DNA of 64,000 nt from positions 62,001 through 126,000 of the forward strand of contig JADJLX010000001.1 in NCBI GenBank assembly GCA_016709865.1, written 5' to 3'. Under the pieces are notes generated by a model. It saw nothing but the letters and a program-made list of their open reading frames with translations, was not told where the DNA came from and ran no database searches. Numbering within the stretch: position 1 is the stretch's first letter; each line of letters begins with the position of its first letter. Below are positions 39,122 through 46,123 of the stretch, one piece after another. The position numbers were made by a program, and so were the translations under genes. This DNA comes from Bacteroidales bacterium. Lineage in GTDB: Bacteria > Bacteroidota > Bacteroidia > Bacteroidales > VadinHA17.

Positions 39122-40192
39122 CTAAATTAGAAAATATTTTTTTCTGAAGTATAAGGCAACGTTAACCAGGGCTATCATAACAGGAACTTCTACCAGTGGT
39201 CCAATCACGGCCGTAAATGCTTCTCCGGAATTAATTCCGAATATTGCGATTGCCACCGCTATTGCAAGTTCAAAATTATTACTGGCTGCAGTAAAAGAGA
39301 GAGTAACTGTCTGGCTATAGGTTGCTCCGGCTTTCCTGCTCATGAAAAATGAAGAGATAAACATTACCAGGAAATAAATAATCAGAGGGATAGCTATTGA
39401 AATAACATCGAGAGGCAACCTGACTATGTACTCTCCCTTCAATGAGAACATTACAACAATTGTAAAAAGTAAAGCAATTAATGTTAACGGACTTATTCTG
39501 GGAATAAATTTAGTATGGTACCACTCCTTATTTCTCACCCTGATCAGAATAAAACGAGTGAGAAATCCAGCTATAAATGGGATTCCAAGGTATATAAAGA
39601 CGCTTTTTGCGATCTGCCCGATTGTTATGTTTTCAACAATGGTATTTGTCGGAACACCAAACCAACCCGGCAGAATAGCTATGAAAACATATGCATAAAC
39701 CGAAAAGAAAAGAACCTGAAATACAGAGTTAAATGCAACTAATCCTGCACAATATTCAGTATCACCTTTCGCCAGATCATTCCAGACTATCACCATAGCA
39801 ATACAGCGGGCAAGCCCGATCATTATTATTCCATACATATATGGAAGGTTGGCATTGTTTTCACCAGGCAGGATTTTGAAGAAGACAATCGCCAGTGTAA
39901 ACATTAATACCGGTCCGATGATCCAGTTCTGAACCAGGGAAAGACCTAGAATTTTAAAATTCCTGAATACACCACCAAGCTCTTCATATTTAACTTTTGC
40001 AAGAGGAGGATACATCATCAGTATTAATCCTATTGCAATAGGAATATTAGTTGTACTCTCAGGTGTGGATTTTAAGGAATCCCAGAATCTGGCTATTCCG
40101 GGGAAAAAATATCCGCTAAATACTCCTGTAAACATTGCAAGAAATATCCAAAGAGTAAGGTACCTGTCAAGAATCTTAAGTTTTGGCTTCAT
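39122..40192 (-). CDS. acr3: Arsenite efflux transporter Acr3
   Basis: The 356-aa protein of about ten membrane helices has the Acr3 block [11 protein letters not shown], carrying the conserved cysteine, and [14 protein letters not shown]. It expels As(III) using the proton motive force. It lies 16 bp downstream of hgcB and with arsC and arsR completes a reduction-and-efflux pathway for arsenate. Intact and of normal length. Confidence 0.93.
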
Positions 40193-40208: not shown

Positions 40209-40520
40209 TTAACAACAATTTGAATCCGAACCGGAGCACCCGCATGATGGTTCTGTATTATTCAGAATTCCATTTATTATTCCCGCAGCACATCCGACAC
40301 CGGAATTTACCTTAATTGAATTTTGGGGACAGTTTAAAGCGCATGCTCCACACTCCATACAATAATCTCGCCTGACAATATGTGCCTTCCTTCCGGATAA
40401 TTCAAATACTTCATGCGGACAAACTTTTATACACATTCCGCATCCATTGCAGCTTTCCTCACATAATTCGAGAGTCACAACATCCGACAAATAAACAAGT
40501 TCTTTCATAGTAAAGATCAT
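40209..40520 (-). CDS. hgcB: HgcB ferredoxin-like mercury methylation protein
   Basis: The 103-aa protein has two 4Fe-4S motifs, [12 protein letters not shown] and [12 protein letters not shown]. It also has the lone Cys in V-G-C-A-A-G-I and a Cys-rich end, [12 protein letters not shown]. This is the HgcB pattern: the clusters pass electrons to the corrinoid of HgcA, and the terminal cysteines are thought to bind Hg(II). The start overlaps the hgcA stop as ATGA (40517-40520). An ordinary bacterial ferredoxin would lack the C-terminal cysteines and this neighbour. Confidence 0.92.
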
Positions 40521-41551
40521 ATTAGTTTGCCAATGACTTGTAAAACCACACCCAACGCAGCAAATGCTATCTGTAACGGAAGACTGAACTTCATTTCCTT
40601 CTTAACACCCGAAAGTGATGTATATGTTGATGAGCCTGTAAAATTCATCGCAAGAAATGAAGAGATTGCAGTTATAATAAAAAACCAGGAAAAGTTTTCC
40701 AATAAACTATCCCCGGTAAAATCCAGTACAAAAAGAATAAGGTAAACCATCGATCCGGTATAAAAACCTTTAATTGAAAAATGCCTGGCTGGAATAAAAG
40801 GGAGTAAAACAGGGGTCATAATAATTCCTGACATATAAGCAAATAATACATTTACTATTGCAGTTAACCCATTTGTTGAAAAATCCGCAACGGATAATCC
40901 TTTACCAGATAGTCCTGAAAGCAAGAAAAGTATTACCATAGCTCCCAGGAGATAGTATTTCCCATACATAAAATCATTAGGGATCAGCTTAACACGATCA
41001 GAAAGATTAAAAGTGACCTTCCTCATCTCTTTATCAGCCCGGTATCCATTGCCCACAAATTTTTGAATATCCGAAGAACGGACTGGTCCATAATGTACAT
41101 TAAAGGCTGTTTGCTCCTTTACTTTATGAGCAGCAACACCGGTGGCTCCAAGCTGTGGAAGAATTATTCGTCTGTGCGCAACAACTTTATCAAGAGAAAC
41201 GGACCTTATTCTTTTAACAAGCTCATTGGTACTGAAGGTTCCCTTGCCTGCAGCGCACCAGACATTTACACCTTTTGTATCAAGAACTAGTATCCAGCCA
41301 TCAATACCGTAAAGATTTTTTCGCACATGGTCGAAAGTCAGTTTATAATTGGCTGTTACAAAAACATCAGATGATTCGTTTGGTTTGCCAACAGCGTAAA
41401 GTCCGGGGTTAACTCTGTAATTATTACGGTTGATCCCCCAGCGTACCATTATAGCTCCTAAATAATCTTTATAGCCAAGATAGTCAAGTACAACAGGAAC
41501 AGTTGTATCTGAAACAGATATACTTCCGTTATAATAAGATTTATTAATCAT
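40517..41551 (-). CDS. hgcA: HgcA corrinoid methyltransferase for mercury methylation
   Basis: The 344-aa protein has an N-terminal corrinoid-binding domain. It carries the diagnostic cap-helix motif N-V-W-C-A-A-G-K at residues 96-103, whose Cys coordinates cobalt. The C-terminal domain has five membrane helices (about 198-215, 229-253, 262-279, 287-302 and 324-342) and the conserved A-M-N-F-T-G-S-S-T-Y-T block. HgcA donates a methyl group to Hg(II). Length is close to known HgcA proteins (about 340). The motif continues G-T-F-S-T, where many homologues have G-T-F-G-T. It lies 2 bp after arsC and overlaps hgcB, so the genes should be cotranscribed with the arsenic genes. Confidence 0.95.
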   Translation of the reverse strand: MINKSYYNGSISVSDTTVPVVLDYLGYKDYLGAIMVRWGINRNNYRVNPGLYAVGKPNESSDVFVTANYKLTFDHVRKNLYGIDGWILVLDTKGVNVWCAAGKGTFSTNELVKRIRSVSLDKVVAHRRIILPQLGATGVAAHKVKEQTAFNVHYGPVRSSDIQKFVGNGYRADKEMRKVTFNLSDRVKLIPNDFMYGKYYLLGAMVILFLLSGLSGKGLSVADFSTNGLTAIVNVLFAYMSGIIMTPVLLPFIPARHFSIKGFYTGSMVYLILFVLDFTGDSLLENFSWFFIITAISSFLAMNFTGSSTYTSLSGVKKEMKFSLPLQIAFAALGVVLQVIGKLI

Positions 41552-41553
41552 GA

Positions 41554-41979
41554 CTATAATTTCTTCTTCATTTCAATTTCGAATAAATTAAAAAACTCAT
41601 CCCTGATATCATTTCTTATTCTGTAGAATTCGTTCAGTATTTCGGTATAGTTTCCCTTTGTTTCCGAAGGATCCTCAAATCCCATGTGCAATCTGTTCCT
41701 TACTTTTCCGGGAAAAACGGGACAAACTTCATTCGCATGGTCGCACACAGTTATCACATAGTCCCATTCTTCATTCAGATACTGATCGACATTTTTAGGT
41801 TTATGATGACTGATATCCACACCAGCCTTTTTCATAACGTCAATAGCCATCTGGTTTACCTTTCGTGCAGGCTCGGTTCCGGCAGAGTGTACCTCCAGCC
41901 TTTTATCAAATGACTGCAAAAATCCATGTGCCATCTGGCTACGGCAACTGTTGCCGGTGCAAAGTATTAGAATCTTCAT
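41554..41979 (-). CDS. arsC: Arsenate reductase ArsC (thioredoxin-dependent type)
   Basis: The 141-aa low-molecular-weight phosphatase fold has P-loop C-T-G-N-S-C-R-S (Cys7 to Arg13) and the redox pair Cys79/Cys86 in V-C-D-H-A-N-E-V-C-P. This is the pI258-like, thioredoxin-linked arsenate reductase. It reduces As(V) to As(III) for export by Acr3 three genes downstream. The stop is 2 bp before hgcA. All three catalytic cysteines are present. Confidence 0.94.
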   Translation of the reverse strand: MKILILCTGNSCRSQMAHGFLQSFDKRLEVHSAGTEPARKVNQMAIDVMKKAGVDISHHKPKNVDQYLNEEWDYVITVCDHANEVCPVFPGKVRNRLHMGFEDPSETKGNYTEILNEFYRIRNDIRDEFFNLFEIEMKKKL

Positions 41980-42024: not shown

Positions 42025-42795
42025 TCAAGGCTTTATCTTCTCAAACAGACCTATTAGTTTGGTGTTATAAAATTCGTTTATCTGGGACTCATGTTCGCCT
42101 ATAGGTTTCACAGGAATCAGGTCTATTACATCCTGTGCTGTTAAGCCTGATTTGTACATTAAGTTTAATGACGCAATAAGAGTATCATTTATTGAAGCAT
42201 TTGCTTCTTTTTCGTTAAGTCCGATTTTCTGTCCAATAGCAGCGAGTTCTCTCCACTGGAACCAGAAATATGTGGGCAGCATTGCCGACATTATTGCATA
42301 GCTCTCTAGTTTCTCTTCAGATACTTCAAATGTTTCACCAAGGGTTTTAAGCAAGTCCAGAATTTCCATTTTTTCCCCCTTTTCAAATTCTGATGAAAAG
42401 CAAACAGGATTGTACCCTTCATTGATATAAGAAGTTGCATTCGGGATTAATCTTGCGATGTTCTTAATGTGTGGCAGTTTTGATGCCATCTTCGCGATAC
42501 TAATTTTCGGTGCCAGCGAAATTACGGTTGAATCTGCCTTTATGCTCCCTTTAACTAATTCAAGCGTATCCATAACAACAGGAGGATGTAATGATATAAA
42601 AACAATATCCTGACCTGCAGCATTTAAAGAATCAGCGCCTTCAACTTCAGGAAATTTCTTTTTGAGTGATGCCAGAACTTCCGGATTTGTATCTGAAACG
42701 ACAACCTTACCGAATTTTACTTTCTTGTTACTAAATCCCCGGAGAAGAATTTTTGTTACTCTTCCGCCGCCGATAAATCCAATTGACTTTTTCAT
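42025..42795 (-). CDS. ProC-like NAD(P)-binding protein in ars-hgc operon
   Basis: The 256-aa protein has an N-terminal Rossmann motif, I-G-F-I-G-G-G-R-V-T-K-I-L, and the layout of pyrroline-5-carboxylate reductase. That includes I-S-L-H-P-P-V-V, R-L-I-P-N-A-T-S and a helical C-terminal dimerisation domain. The proline-enzyme role is uncertain, because it sits between rhodanese and arsC in an arsenic operon and the C-terminal half deviates from ProC. It could reduce another imine or act as a redox helper. Confidence 0.75.
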   Translation of the reverse strand: MKKSIGFIGGGRVTKILLRGFSNKKVKFGKVVVSDTNPEVLASLKKKFPEVEGADSLNAAGQDIVFISLHPPVVMDTLELVKGSIKADSTVISLAPKISIAKMASKLPHIKNIARLIPNATSYINEGYNPVCFSSEFEKGEKMEILDLLKTLGETFEVSEEKLESYAIMSAMLPTYFWFQWRELAAIGQKIGLNEKEANASINDTLIASLNLMYKSGLTAQDVIDLIPVKPIGEHESQINEFYNTKLIGLFEKIKP

Positions 42796-42865: not shown

Positions 42866-43288
42866 TTATTTGTCTTTTCCCGACTCTCTGGGCTTAAGCT
42901 GACACATACATGAACCTGTCAAACGGCTTGAAATGTCAATAGTTACAGGCAAACCATCTCTTTCCCAGTCAACAATTCCTCCTGCCATGTTTGCTATCTT
43001 TTTAAATCCCTTTTCTTTCAGGAAAATAACCACTTCCTTACTTCTGAGCCCAACAGTATCAGCAAAAATTAAGCAGGAGTCAACAGGCAAATTTCCGTAC
43101 TCATTAATAATCTTACTTTTAGGGAATAAGATTAATCCGGGAACATCAAATGATTTGAATCCTCTAAGGTTTTCCTCCCTGACATCTATCAGAAGCGCCC
43201 CCTTTTTAACCAGTTCAAAGGCTTCCCCGGGCGAAACATTAAGAATTTCGCAGCTGACAATTCCGAAACCTTCAAACAAGTCTTTCAT
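42866..43288 (-). CDS. Rhodanese-like protein lacking the catalytic cysteine
   Basis: The 140-aa single rhodanese domain (A-L-L-I-D-V-R-E-E-N, then A-G-G-I-V-D-W-E-R-D-G-L-P-V). In the active-site loop the usual Cys is Asp77 (D-T-V-G-L-R-S), so classic sulfurtransfer by that residue is not possible. The C-terminal tail has C-M-C, which might bind metal. It belongs to the ars operon by strand and spacing, and could sense or carry a thiophilic ion. That role is inference. Confidence 0.8.
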   Translation of the reverse strand: MKDLFEGFGIVSCEILNVSPGEAFELVKKGALLIDVREENLRGFKSFDVPGLILFPKSKIINEYGNLPVDSCLIFADTVGLRSKEVVIFLKEKGFKKIANMAGGIVDWERDGLPVTIDISSRLTGSCMCQLKPRESGKDK

Positions 43289-43334: not shown

Positions 43335-44351
43335 TCAAAAAATTGAATTAAAAAGAAAACCAACAATCATAATTCCTGAAGCGACAATCCCAATAAATGT
43401 CAGTATCAAAGGAAGTTTCAAAACCTTTTTCAGAATAATTATCTCGGGAAGTGAGAGTCCGATCACTGCCATCATGAACGCAAGTGCTGTACCCAGGGGA
43501 ACACCTTTCTCAATAAAAACGCTGACAATTGGTATAATACCTGCAGCATTTGAATAAAGGGGCACGCCTATCAGGACCGAAAGAGGAACTGAATACCATA
43601 CAGATTTCCCCATAAGGTTTGTCATGAAACTTTCCGGCACATAACCATGCGCTGCGGCTCCGACTGCGATACCGATAACAATATAAATCCAGACTTTACC
43701 AACTATCTCTTTAACAGCTGTAAATCCCATATCCATTCGCTGCGGGAATGTTATTTTTTCCTCAGCCTCCTCGTCTGATGAACCCATTTTCTCATATACC
43801 CAGTTCTCAACATGTCTTTCAAGCTTAAGTTTGCCGATAACATAGCCTGAGAAAATCGCAATTACGAGACCGGTGGCAACATAAATCAGAGCCACCTTCC
43901 ATCCGAACAATCCAAATAAAAGTATTACTGCAACCTCATTAATCATAGGTGCAGAAATCAGAAAAGAGAAGGTAACGCCGAGCGGTACACCTGCCTGAAC
44001 AAAGCCAAGAAACAACGGTATTGCAGAGCATGAGCAGAATGGTGTGACTATTCCCAGCAGCGCAGCCATAACATTGCCTGTGAATAAAGATTTCCCTTCA
44101 AGAGTCCTTCTTGTTTTTTCCGGAGTAAAATATGTTCTGATAATTCCTACAAAGAAGACGATAAGGATCAACAGCATCAGAACCTTCGGCACTTCAAAAA
44201 TGAAAAACCTAAGAGACTCAGTCAGATGCATTCCCTTTTGCATACCAAATATATCATCAACAATAAAATCGGTAATGAATTGCAGGTAATGATATAAAGT
44301 ATACCATATTGCAACCCCCCCAACTATTTTAAAAATCTTCTTCCAATCCAT
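43335..44351 (-). CDS. ArsP/SO_0444-type permease
   Basis: The 338-aa permease of about 8-10 helices has the family's T-P-F-C-S-C-S-A-I-P-L-F block and F-L-I-S-A-P-M-I-N-E. A charged cytoplasmic loop is at about 175-205. The C-S-C motif can bind As(III) or methylarsenite in ArsP-type transporters. Related SO_0444 permeases handle Cu/Zn. In this operon, efflux of trivalent organoarsenicals is the best guess. The gene symbol arsP is likely but not certain. Confidence 0.82.
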   Translation of the reverse strand: MDWKKIFKIVGGVAIWYTLYHYLQFITDFIVDDIFGMQKGMHLTESLRFFIFEVPKVLMLLILIVFFVGIIRTYFTPEKTRRTLEGKSLFTGNVMAALLGIVTPFCSCSAIPLFLGFVQAGVPLGVTFSFLISAPMINEVAVILLFGLFGWKVALIYVATGLVIAIFSGYVIGKLKLERHVENWVYEKMGSSDEEAEEKITFPQRMDMGFTAVKEIVGKVWIYIVIGIAVGAAAHGYVPESFMTNLMGKSVWYSVPLSVLIGVPLYSNAAGIIPIVSVFIEKGVPLGTALAFMMAVIGLSLPEIIILKKVLKLPLILTFIGIVASGIMIVGFLFNSIF

Positions 44352-44367
44352 TATATTTATTTGAAAA

Positions 44368-45066
44368 TCACAAAAACACTCTGATAATATAATATATCCC
44401 CACTATCATAAATAAAACCGCAATTACCCTCCTGAACCATTTCTCAAAAATTTTAATCTTATTGTAGATGCCTCCGATCCCTGATACTGTATAAGCCAGC
44501 AACCATGCAAAGAGGATAACCGGAATTCCGGTTGCTATTGCAAACAAAACAGGCAGATATAAACCTGATGAGCTTACTACAGTCATTGGAACCAGCATAC
44601 CAAAATAGAGTACCCCGCTATAAGGACAGAAAGCAAGTGCAAAGACCATTCCGAGAAGTAGAGCATCGATATAACGCCAGGATTTTCTTGTTTCCATCCT
44701 GGATATCAATCCGCTCAATCCGGGAAAGTTGATTCTGATGAAATCAAGCATAAACACTCCGATTATAAGCAGCAATGGCCCCATGATTTTTTCACCGTAC
44801 CTCTGGAAAAACCCTGAAAACTTAAACTGATCTGCCCCAATAAATATTATCAAAGGAATCAAAGTATAAGAAATTGCTCTGCCAAGGGTATAAAACAATC
44901 CATTATAAAACACCCTGTTCCGGTCTTCGAGATCTCTGCTTATAAATCCGATCGCAGTAATATTTGTGGCTAAGGGACATGGACTTATGGCTGTCATTAG
45001 TCCAAGCAAAACAGCTGTCAGCCATGGCATTGAACTGCTATCAAGAAGATTTGTAAGAAATTCCAT
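44368..45066 (-). CDS. arsG: ArsG-like efflux permease (CcdA/DsbD fold)
   Basis: The 232-aa protein of six membrane helices has the pairs S-P-C-P-L-A-T-N-I and F-C-P-Y-S-G-V-L-Y-F-G. These are typical of CcdA-like proteins renamed ArsG when linked to arsE and arsF. ArsEFG of Shewanella reduces nitroaromatic arsenicals and exports the amino forms. It begins 4 bp after arsF, so they are translated together. Confidence 0.8.
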   Translation of the reverse strand: MEFLTNLLDSSSMPWLTAVLLGLMTAISPCPLATNITAIGFISRDLEDRNRVFYNGLFYTLGRAISYTLIPLIIFIGADQFKFSGFFQRYGEKIMGPLLLIIGVFMLDFIRINFPGLSGLISRMETRKSWRYIDALLLGMVFALAFCPYSGVLYFGMLVPMTVVSSSGLYLPVLFAIATGIPVILFAWLLAYTVSGIGGIYNKIKIFEKWFRRVIAVLFMIVGIYYIIRVFL

Positions 45067-45070
45067 GTAC

Positions 45071-45493
45071 CTACTTAATCAAAGGATCTACTTTCTCTTT
45101 AATTACGTCTCTGAATTTATCTGGTTTTGCAACAGCATAAAGAAAACCTTCGTTTGTAATATTTATCTTTTGATCCCCTTTAACTATGAGCAGAGTCTGA
45201 CTGTTAACACCGAGTCTTTCACCGGTTGCTTTTCCGGCAGGCTCTTCAATATTCAATGCTGTAAAACTGATCTTACCGGCTTTAAACTGTTCCGGATAAA
45301 GCATTTCGACATTTCTTCTGGCTTCAGCTTCAATGGTTTTGCAGGTTACACAACGCGTGGTCATGTGAAAATAATAAACTTCCACATCGTTTCCGGCTGC
45401 AGTAACTATCTGTTGTTTTTTATCTGTCTGTGCATTACATGAAACTCCCGATAAAAGCAACAATAGAATTCCTCCAATAAATAAGTTTTTCAT
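45071..45493 (-). CDS. arsF: ArsF-like redox protein
   Basis: The 140-aa protein has a signal or lipoprotein start (L-L-L-L-S-G-V-S-C-N-A) and a thioredoxin-like body with C-V-T-C. Y-F-H-M-T-T-R-C-V-T-C fits the ArsF family, annotated as a subunit of nitrophenyl nitroreductase. The lipobox Cys near residue 19 suggests membrane anchoring. It lies between arsE and arsG. Confidence 0.75.
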   Translation of the reverse strand: MKNLFIGGILLLLLSGVSCNAQTDKKQQIVTAAGNDVEVYYFHMTTRCVTCKTIEAEARRNVEMLYPEQFKAGKISFTALNIEEPAGKATGERLGVNSQTLLIVKGDQKINITNEGFLYAVAKPDKFRDVIKEKVDPLIK

Positions 45494-45516: not shown

Positions 45517-45774
45517 TTATTTAATTAACAATTGTTTTATCTCATCAGCTGAAGGGATACGTCCCTTCAAAACGACTTTTCCGTCAACAACTAGCGCAGG
45601 TGTTGTCATGATGTTGTATTTCATTATTTCCATGATATCCTCAACCTTTGTTATCGTAGCATCAATAGCATTCTTACTTACCACATCCCGTGTCAGTTGC
45701 TCCAGTGTTTTGCATTTAGTACACCCGGTGCCCAAAATTTTTATTTCCATTTCTGTATTTTTATTTTTTTGCAT
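45517..45774 (-). CDS. arsE: ArsE-like thioredoxin-family protein
   Basis: The 85-aa redox-active disulfide protein of the TM0996/MTH895 type has active site G-C-T-K-C-K-T and the cis-Pro T-T-P-A-L-V-V-D-G-K-V. It probably serves as electron donor for ArsC or the ArsF reductase. The ATG at 45750 is an alternative start that would drop eight charged residues. It is the first gene after arsR (14-bp gap). Confidence 0.8.
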   Translation of the reverse strand: MQKNKNTEMEIKILGTGCTKCKTLEQLTRDVVSKNAIDATITKVEDIMEIMKYNIMTTPALVVDGKVVLKGRIPSADEIKQLLIK

Positions 45775-45788
45775 CCAATTGTCCTGAA

Positions 45789-46091
45789 TTATCTGTTGAA
45801 GAACTGACCAAACATCTCTCTTGCATCAGCCCAGTTTTCCTTGTTGATACAATACTTTATATATGGCGGATTTATTTCACCCTGTATCAGTCCGGCATTT
45901 TTTAACTCTTTAAGATGCTGTGACAGAGTCGATCTGGCTATAGGCAATTCCTCAACCATGTCACTGCTGTAACAGCACTTGTCAGTATTCTTCACAAGAA
46001 ATTCCATGATAAATACCCTGGCGGGATGACCTAAAGCTTTTGAATACCTTGCCAGCCTCTCCTGCTTTTCAGTATATACTTTCACTTTCAT
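45789..46091 (-). CDS. arsR: ArsR-family arsenic-responsive repressor
   Basis: The 100-aa winged-helix protein has the ArsR pattern Y-S-K-A-L-G-H-P-A-R-V-F-I-M-E-F-L, R-S-T-L-S-Q-H-L-K-E-L and a Cys pair, Cys39-Cys40, at the start of the DNA-binding helix, plus Cys81. These are likely As(III) ligands. It is the first gene of the operon. Its own promoter has an inverted repeat just after the -7 box, so it should repress the whole ars-hgc cluster until metalloid binds. Confidence 0.93.
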   Translation of the reverse strand: MKVKVYTEKQERLARYSKALGHPARVFIMEFLVKNTDKCCYSSDMVEELPIARSTLSQHLKELKNAGLIQGEINPPYIKYCINKENWADAREMFGQFFNR

Positions 46092-46115: not shown

Positions 46116-46123
46116 CAAAAATA
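46116..46123 (-). promoter_or_regulatory. -7 box of ars-hgc operon
   Basis: The minus strand reads TATTTTTG, an exact TAnnTTTG match directly adjacent to the ArsR operator. Confidence 0.55.

Follow-up and report, generated by a model that had tools for sequence, protein, structure and literature searches.

Mercury-methylation genes hgcAB in an eleven-gene arsenic run of a Bacteroidales bacterium: a likely arsenite-inducible regulon

The gene pair hgcAB, known for the formation of neurotoxic methylmercury, has been described beside arsenic-resistance genes. McDaniel et al. 2020 (PMC7438021) presented several examples, in diverse putative methylators, of hgcAB flanked by acr3 and arsC, with arsR or arsM near by in the loci treated in the text available. 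For Prolixibacteraceae, which belong to the order Bacteroidales, PMC10504345 reports the co-location of hgcAB with several arsenic genes, which the accessible part of that paper does not specify. The relevant part of PMC10349881, citing Gionfriddo et al. 2023, states that an ArsR-like regulator that responds to arsenic controls hgcAB in Pseudodesulfovibrio mercurii ND132, a member of another phylum in which arsR is reported to precede hgcAB on a shared transcript. According to the portion of PMC12953829 available, arsR was not close to hgcAB in the genomes of that study.

We analyzed a stretch of 64,000 nucleotides (hereafter, the window) from a Bacteroidales bacterium (assembly GCA_016709865.1, contig JADJLX010000001.1, positions 62,001 to 126,000), in which hgcAB has the same acr3 and arsC flanks as in the loci of PMC7438021 and the same association with arsenic genes, in the same order of bacteria, as in Prolixibacteraceae. 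In contrast to ND132, arsR and hgcA are separated by seven genes in the window, and arsenic-responsive control of the ND132 type is predicted here solely from an operator-like site and the gene spacing. The arsE, arsF and arsG genes, an arsP-like gene, two arsR classes and an operator belong to our description and are not mentioned in the available text of PMC7438021, figures aside. Among the papers searched, none contained both of the whole words hgcA and arsP, and no description of the eleven-gene order was seen in the search listings and text passages covered. The position of hgcAB between arsC and acr3, its co-location with ars genes in Bacteroidales and its control by ArsR elsewhere are therefore already known; we add the frequency of linkage compared with controls, an Acr3 tree with 10 label changes, the constancy of hgcAB at one chromosomal address, and an arsEFG-type arsR with its own predicted operator.

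The run consists of eleven minus-strand genes, from position 46091 down to 39122, in the order arsR-arsE-arsF-arsG-arsP-like-rhodanese-proC-like-arsC-hgcA-hgcB-acr3 (Table 1). The initial annotation had placed hgcAB between arsC and acr3, with a 2-bp gap and an ATGA overlap, in a run starting at arsR; the coordinates agree, as 2 bp separate arsC from hgcA, hgcA and hgcB overlap by 4 bp, and 16 bp separate hgcB from acr3. The widest gaps are those from the rhodanese gene to the proC-like gene (70 bp), from the arsP-like gene to the rhodanese gene (46 bp) and from the proC-like gene to arsC (45 bp). Two genes, of the uracil-DNA-glycosylase family and with a FISUMP domain, respectively, are located 5΄ of arsR on the same strand.

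Table 1. Features of the eleven-gene run and of the region ahead of arsR
Feature	Position	Strand	Basis
Bacteroidota-type promoter element, -7-like, TATTTTTG	46116..46123	-	Consensus presumed
Predicted ArsR operator, perfect dyad TTTCGTAATTAGACGAAA	46098..46115	-	6 bp ahead of arsR start codon
arsR, class-1 ArsR repressor	45789..46091	-	Pfam HTH_5 36.4 bits (cut-off 22), ArsR tree, cysteines
arsE, MTH895/ArsE family thioredoxin-like protein	45517..45774	-	TIGR00412 120.7 bits (cut-off 62)
arsF family	45071..45493	-	NF040494 102.8 bits (cut-off 60)
arsG family organoarsenical efflux permease	44368..45066	-	NF040495 303.4 bits (cut-off 200)
arsP-like, ArsP_1 family permease	43335..44351	-	Pfam ArsP_1 243.8 bits (cut-off 32.3)
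Rhodanese-domain protein	42866..43288	-	Pfam 33.4 bits (cut-off 22.2)
ProC-like / F420_oxidored NADP-binding protein	42025..42795	-	Pfam 45.6 bits (cut-off 21.6)
arsC, thioredoxin-type arsenate reductase-like	41554..41979	-	Pfam LMWPc 77.9 bits (cut-off 23.2)
hgcA, mercury-methylation corrinoid protein	40517..41551	-	NCBIfam NF040863, HgcA model and fold search
hgcB, mercury-methylation ferredoxin	40209..40520	-	NCBIfam NF040864
acr3, arsenite efflux permease	39122..40192	-	TIGR00832 433.1 bits (cut-off 282.8)

The run has arsR, arsC and acr3 on one strand, and such a set, with either acr3 or arsB, is what we required of an ars operon. Acr3 scored above its NCBIfam cut-off, and ArsC and ArsR exceeded the Pfam cut-offs but not those of NCBIfam (120.9 against 174.3 for TIGR02691, and 51.2, just below 55, for NF033788, respectively). 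Adjacent to one another, with gaps of 23 and 4 bp, and all above cut-off, arsE, arsF and arsG form an arsEFG organoarsenical module. The arsP-like permease is not SaoE as judged by NF040736 (133.4 against a cut-off of 325), and the ProC-like protein falls under the NCBIfam ProC cut-off. By family, ArsEFG and the ArsP-like pump would deal with organoarsenicals, ArsC reduces arsenate to arsenite and Acr3 exports arsenite; HgcA is a corrinoid methyl donor, and HgcB is the reductant that regenerates Co(I).

The hgcAB pair is genuine, as had been proposed from the sequence: HgcA scored 424.2 bits against a cut-off of 275 (NF040863, a curated equivalog) and HgcB scored 119.8 bits against a cut-off of 99. 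The motif N-V-W-C-A-A-G-K, annotated at residues 96–103 of HgcA, was invariant in 17/17 aligned sequences (window counted) and includes the corrinoid-binding cysteine of N(V/I)WCAAGK, here C99. Among 90 HgcA rows, 83 contain NVWCAAGK; in the other seven, L062 has G for C and six lie outside the search pattern, with A100 replaced in five of these and L020 as the remaining row. The L062 protein (L062:822-1832), an HgcA of a Brocadiaceae bin, thus reads NVWGAAGK, with glycine at the position of the cysteine.

We predicted the structure of HgcA with AlphaFold2 from 52 sequences (mean pLDDT 88.5, although only 66–73 around the motif) and used this model for a fold search, an earlier run with 17 close sequences having given a mean pLDDT of 48. 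The model contains both the corrinoid domain and five long C-terminal helices (183-211, 221-248, 258-275, 283-302 and 313-343), which is consistent with the five membrane helices annotated; membrane insertion is predicted, and a plain hydropathy scan recovered three of the five. The top PDB match was 9a0b_A (E = 8.6e-22), a deposited HgcAB model derived from coevolution, followed by chains of CFeSP, whose subunits match HgcA over the corrinoid domain only. Placement among CdhD/CFeSP proteins, which would have spoken against the annotation, is opposed by both the NCBIfam score and the rank of 9a0b_A ahead of CFeSP; by these tests, the HgcA of the window is not a CFeSP. The two 4Fe-4S motifs and terminal cysteines noted in HgcB are likewise conserved across an alignment of 80 rows, window included: the first CxxCxxCxxxC (C24/27/30/34) in 80/80 rows, the second (C54/57/60/64) in 79/79 aligned rows, and C102 and C103 in 71/72 and 70/73 aligned rows, respectively. 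In this host, HgcAB likely methylates Hg(II).

We then considered the regulator. An ArsR tree of 44 rows (matches under 60 bits and same-contig duplicates excluded; all trees in this study were quick, with SH-aLRT support) separated a class-1 set of 14 rows, which includes the window (support 91), from a class-2 set of 27 rows (support 94), with three rows outside. The arsR of the window therefore belongs to the arsEFG-type class and differs from that of most relatives, which have class-2 arsR ahead of arsC; class 2 occupies this position in many hgcAB loci. Among 15 family hgcA loci with ArsR, 13 have class 2 and G682 has class 1, and the arsR of the remaining locus is too fragmented to assign. 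The closest kin of the window ArsR are in L042 and L017, where arsR leads an arsEFG cluster some 8–9 kb from hgcA, and where a class-2 arsR is located ahead of arsC. Within the window, three class-2 ArsR queries found only the one arsR, and neither form of the class-2 dyad was found in the run. The simplest history, whose direction we infer, is that, in the lineage of the window, an arsR-arsEFG cluster came to precede arsC-hgcAB-acr3 and the class-2 arsR disappeared; hgcAB would thereby have passed between arsenic-type regulators.

A 16-bp dyad with the consensus TTCGTAATTTTRCGAA (core TTCGN8CGAA) was found ahead of 13/14 class-1 arsR genes (L035 counted with a corrected start), compared with 0/30 other arsR genes (one of which, L122, was represented by only 20 bases of upstream sequence) and a background of 0.006 per 160 bp. 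For the 14th gene, in L016, where arsE precedes arsR, the dyad is at the start of arsE. Class-2 arsR genes have other dyads where any were seen, and L065, outside the ArsR tree, has a loosely similar TTCG-N8-CGAA dyad in front of arsR. Elsewhere in the run of the window, the loose pattern matched once, inside hgcA (41320-41335). Because class-1 arsR is preceded by the same operator-like site in three acr3 loci with no hgcA near by (L105, L118 and L127), the site appears to belong to an arsenic regulon. L035 contains three class-1 operator-like sites (2245, 2583 and 4053); arsR and the arsP-like gene are each preceded by one, and the other is close to arsE. All 14 class-1 ArsR proteins have C40 and C81, and seven have C39; C40 and C81 may bind As(III). 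Next to the dyad is a -7-like element, called with what we take to be the Bacteroidota-type consensus, for which no -33 partner was matched. Such 8-mers occurred four times in 8.6 kb of the minus strand, compared with 5.7 expected by shuffling, and since this is no excess over chance, the element lends the promoter little weight.

The frequency of hgcAB agrees with the view that the pair is uncommon in Bacteroidota: HgcA exceeded the cut-off in 2/395 genomes drawn from the phylum (centre genome counted), and yet in 17/117 genomes of one family (that of G002). The second positive genome of the phylum draw, G190, has ArsR and no ArsC or Acr3 match in 15 kb. Within about 1.5 kb of hgcA in the 17 family genomes, ArsR was matched in 15 (one fragmented), ArsC in 13 and Acr3 in 13. 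No plasmid searched had an HgcA match. We also examined 80 hgcA loci, which are the best 80 of 586 matches to the family of the window and not a random draw; 30 are Bacteroidota by title, and 20 of these are evaluable, with 3 kb on both sides. Among these 20 of the best-matching loci, ArsR, ArsC and Acr3 were found on the same strand within 3 kb in 14, 12 and 13, respectively, and among the 29 evaluable of the 50 loci from other or unstated phyla, in 5, 3 and 6, including hgcA-acr3 linkage in two Ignavibacteriota loci and others. Neither arsC nor acr3 was within 3 kb in 7/20 of the Bacteroidota and 23/29 of the other evaluable loci in this best-80 set; thus, hgcAB does not need these genes. 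In 18 genomes taken from these loci, mostly chosen for their ars genes, there was one acr3 match each over cut-off, which was by hgcA in 15 and on another contig in G007 and G008; in G010, a piece of acr3 is by hgcA at a contig end, and the piece over cut-off ends another contig.

Several neighbors of hgcA deserve a separate mention. In 12 of the 80 loci, a gene encoding a membrane protein of the DsbD/CcdA-like type (SCSC motif, about 233 aa; L028:9213-9914) is directly 5΄ of hgcA (gap of 90 bp or less); in L014, it lies 1.4 kb upstream of hgcA, and L036 has it about 1.1 kb downstream. The association extends across Bacteroidota, Planctomycetota, Zixiibacteriota and Calditrichota and includes G190, and neither the window nor the 30 acr3 control loci yielded this gene. 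Its product is a candidate partner of HgcA. Just ahead of the DsbD-like gene in L023, L025, L031 and L042 is the gene of a small protein rich in cysteine (L023:8998-9291; about 97 aa), the L023 copy of which had no Pfam or NCBIfam match. In addition, L167:4502-5912 (the same place as L152) has full-length arsR and arsC matches and only remnants of hgcA, hgcB and acr3, a unit that seems to decay together there, unless the assembly is at fault.

For comparison, Acr3 exceeded the cut-off in 102/198 genomes of the order, and 30 high-scoring acr3 loci of the 102 (L103–L132, about 4 kb each or less) served as controls. HgcA was matched in 0/30 of these; of the 102 genomes, three or more (G002, G012 and G014) have acr3 by hgcA, at lower scores and outside the 30. 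Within about 1.5 kb of acr3, the controls contained arsC (21/30), arsF (8/30), arsG (7/30), arsE (4/30), arsP-like (3/30), rhodanese (3/30) and proC-like (2/30) genes. The kit of the window is thus shared in part with Bacteroidales ars loci lacking hgcA; arsEFG and the arsP-like gene are not specific partners of hgcAB, which is instead a rare addition to such loci. The proposal that the ArsP-like permease and ArsG are dedicated methylmercury exporters was weakened by these control counts and by the fact that only 3/20 evaluable Bacteroidota hgcA loci have a same-strand arsP-like gene at a distance of 10 kb or less.

An Acr3 tree of 61 rows (29 from hgcA loci and 32 not linked) requires 10 changes of the hgcA-linkage label, at least five of them forced by well-supported branches, which indicates that linkage recurs or is often lost; the changes may be gains or losses, which the tree does not distinguish. 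Of 27 loci whose Acr3 match reached 100 bits, six are absent from the tree for low scores or short frames (L016, L033, L035, L061, L067 and L069); the tree includes L052, whose acr3 is 6.8 kb off on the other strand and which, unlabelled, still gives 10 changes. Among the kin of the window, linkage is stable (9/9 rows, support 98).

The HgcA tree (90 rows) places the window in a set of 17 rows (support 99), with eight loci titled Bacteroidales or Bacteroidia and eight genomes of one family. Among the eight best-matching loci, the flanking genes of the window were found on both sides in L001, L002, L005 and L007, which indicates a shared chromosomal address, and on one side in L004 and L008. 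At this address, hgcAB stands alone, with no ars genes, in L007, follows arsR in L005 (arsR-hgcAB), and is part of arsR-arsC-hgcAB-acr3 in L001 and L002; hgcAB is constant, and the arsenic genes vary.

The initial annotation had placed mercury methylation under arsenic/ArsR control. Such control is predicted; a conserved predicted operator ahead of arsR supports it, and an internal promoter could exist. What we observed directly is that HgcA and HgcB belong to their families, how the genes are ordered, oriented and spaced, that the operator-like site is conserved and that linkage is frequent. On this basis, we regard it as probable that ArsR represses all eleven genes from the dyad and that arsenite induces HgcAB, which would methylate Hg(II); that is, the hgcAB of the window likely belongs to an arsenite-inducible regulon. 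ArsR would sit on TTTCGTAATTAGACGAAA, at the would-be transcription start, As(III) on C40 and C81 would free it from the DNA, and a single long transcript would then yield ArsEFG, the ArsP-like pump, ArsC, HgcA, HgcB and Acr3. The tight packing from arsC to acr3, with an overlap or spacing of 2–16 bp, favors a single unit, and the arsenic-responsive ArsR control reported for ND132 favors the regulatory reading; the chance-level -7-like element, the NCBIfam scores of ArsR and ArsC, the Bacteroidota hgcA loci without arsC or acr3, and the distance of arsR from hgcAB in the genomes of PMC12953829 count against arsenic control.

So do the three gaps upstream of hgcA, which could hold promoters. 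If arsC-hgcAB-acr3 were transcribed from its own promoter, either within the proC-like gene or in the 45 bp that separate it from arsC, arsenic would have little effect. Most family relatives have a class-2 arsR directly ahead of this block, which was therefore presumably once an independent unit. However, the run has no second arsR and no class-2 dyad, the 70-, 46- and 45-bp gaps contain no consensus -7 element, and in G682, where two operator-like sites were seen, a class-1 arsR heads a shorter run (rhodanese-arsC-hgcAB-acr3); we consider a separate promoter unlikely. The linkage could also be historical, with hgcAB at a site of ars gene gain and loss without shared function or control, as the different gene sets at the shared address, up to the run of the window, might suggest. 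With one acr3 per 3.5 Mb, however, chance would place it within 3 kb in about 0.2% of cases compared with the 13/20 observed (the 20 loci being kin), and the label changes on the Acr3 tree, though possibly losses, and the linkage in Ignavibacteriota and other loci also make this account quite improbable.

HgcAB might, as a further possibility, act on arsenic itself, transferring a corrinoid-bound methyl group to it in detoxification, with mercury methylation as a side reaction. Frequent linkage to arsenic genes is in accord with this, and ArsM exceeded the NF008823 cut-off in 0/17 hgcA-positive and 34/100 other family genomes (Fisher, P = 0.003), a contrast that does not amount to a test because the genomes are kin and shorter ArsM-like proteins exist (177–183 bits, under the cut-off of 263, in 5/17 hgcA-positive genomes). 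For the same two reasons, a replacement of ArsM by HgcAB was dropped. Given also the many hgcA loci without arsC or acr3, we hold a role in arsenic detoxification to be rather improbable. Still more doubtful is the variant in which HgcAB is, in these Bacteroidales, a working part of arsenic detoxification: a corrinoid methyltransferase for arsenic that organoarsenical operons (arsEFG, arsP-like) have acquired and whose methylated product they export, mercury being methylated incidentally.

What HgcAB does and what triggers it are questions that matter for methylmercury in food webs. The regulator and candidate operator of the window, together with relatives that have the other arsR class, or hgcAB alone at the shared address, make arsenic control of hgcAB testable. 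If such control is true, exposure to arsenic would foretell the expression of hgcAB in anoxic sediments, independent of mercury.
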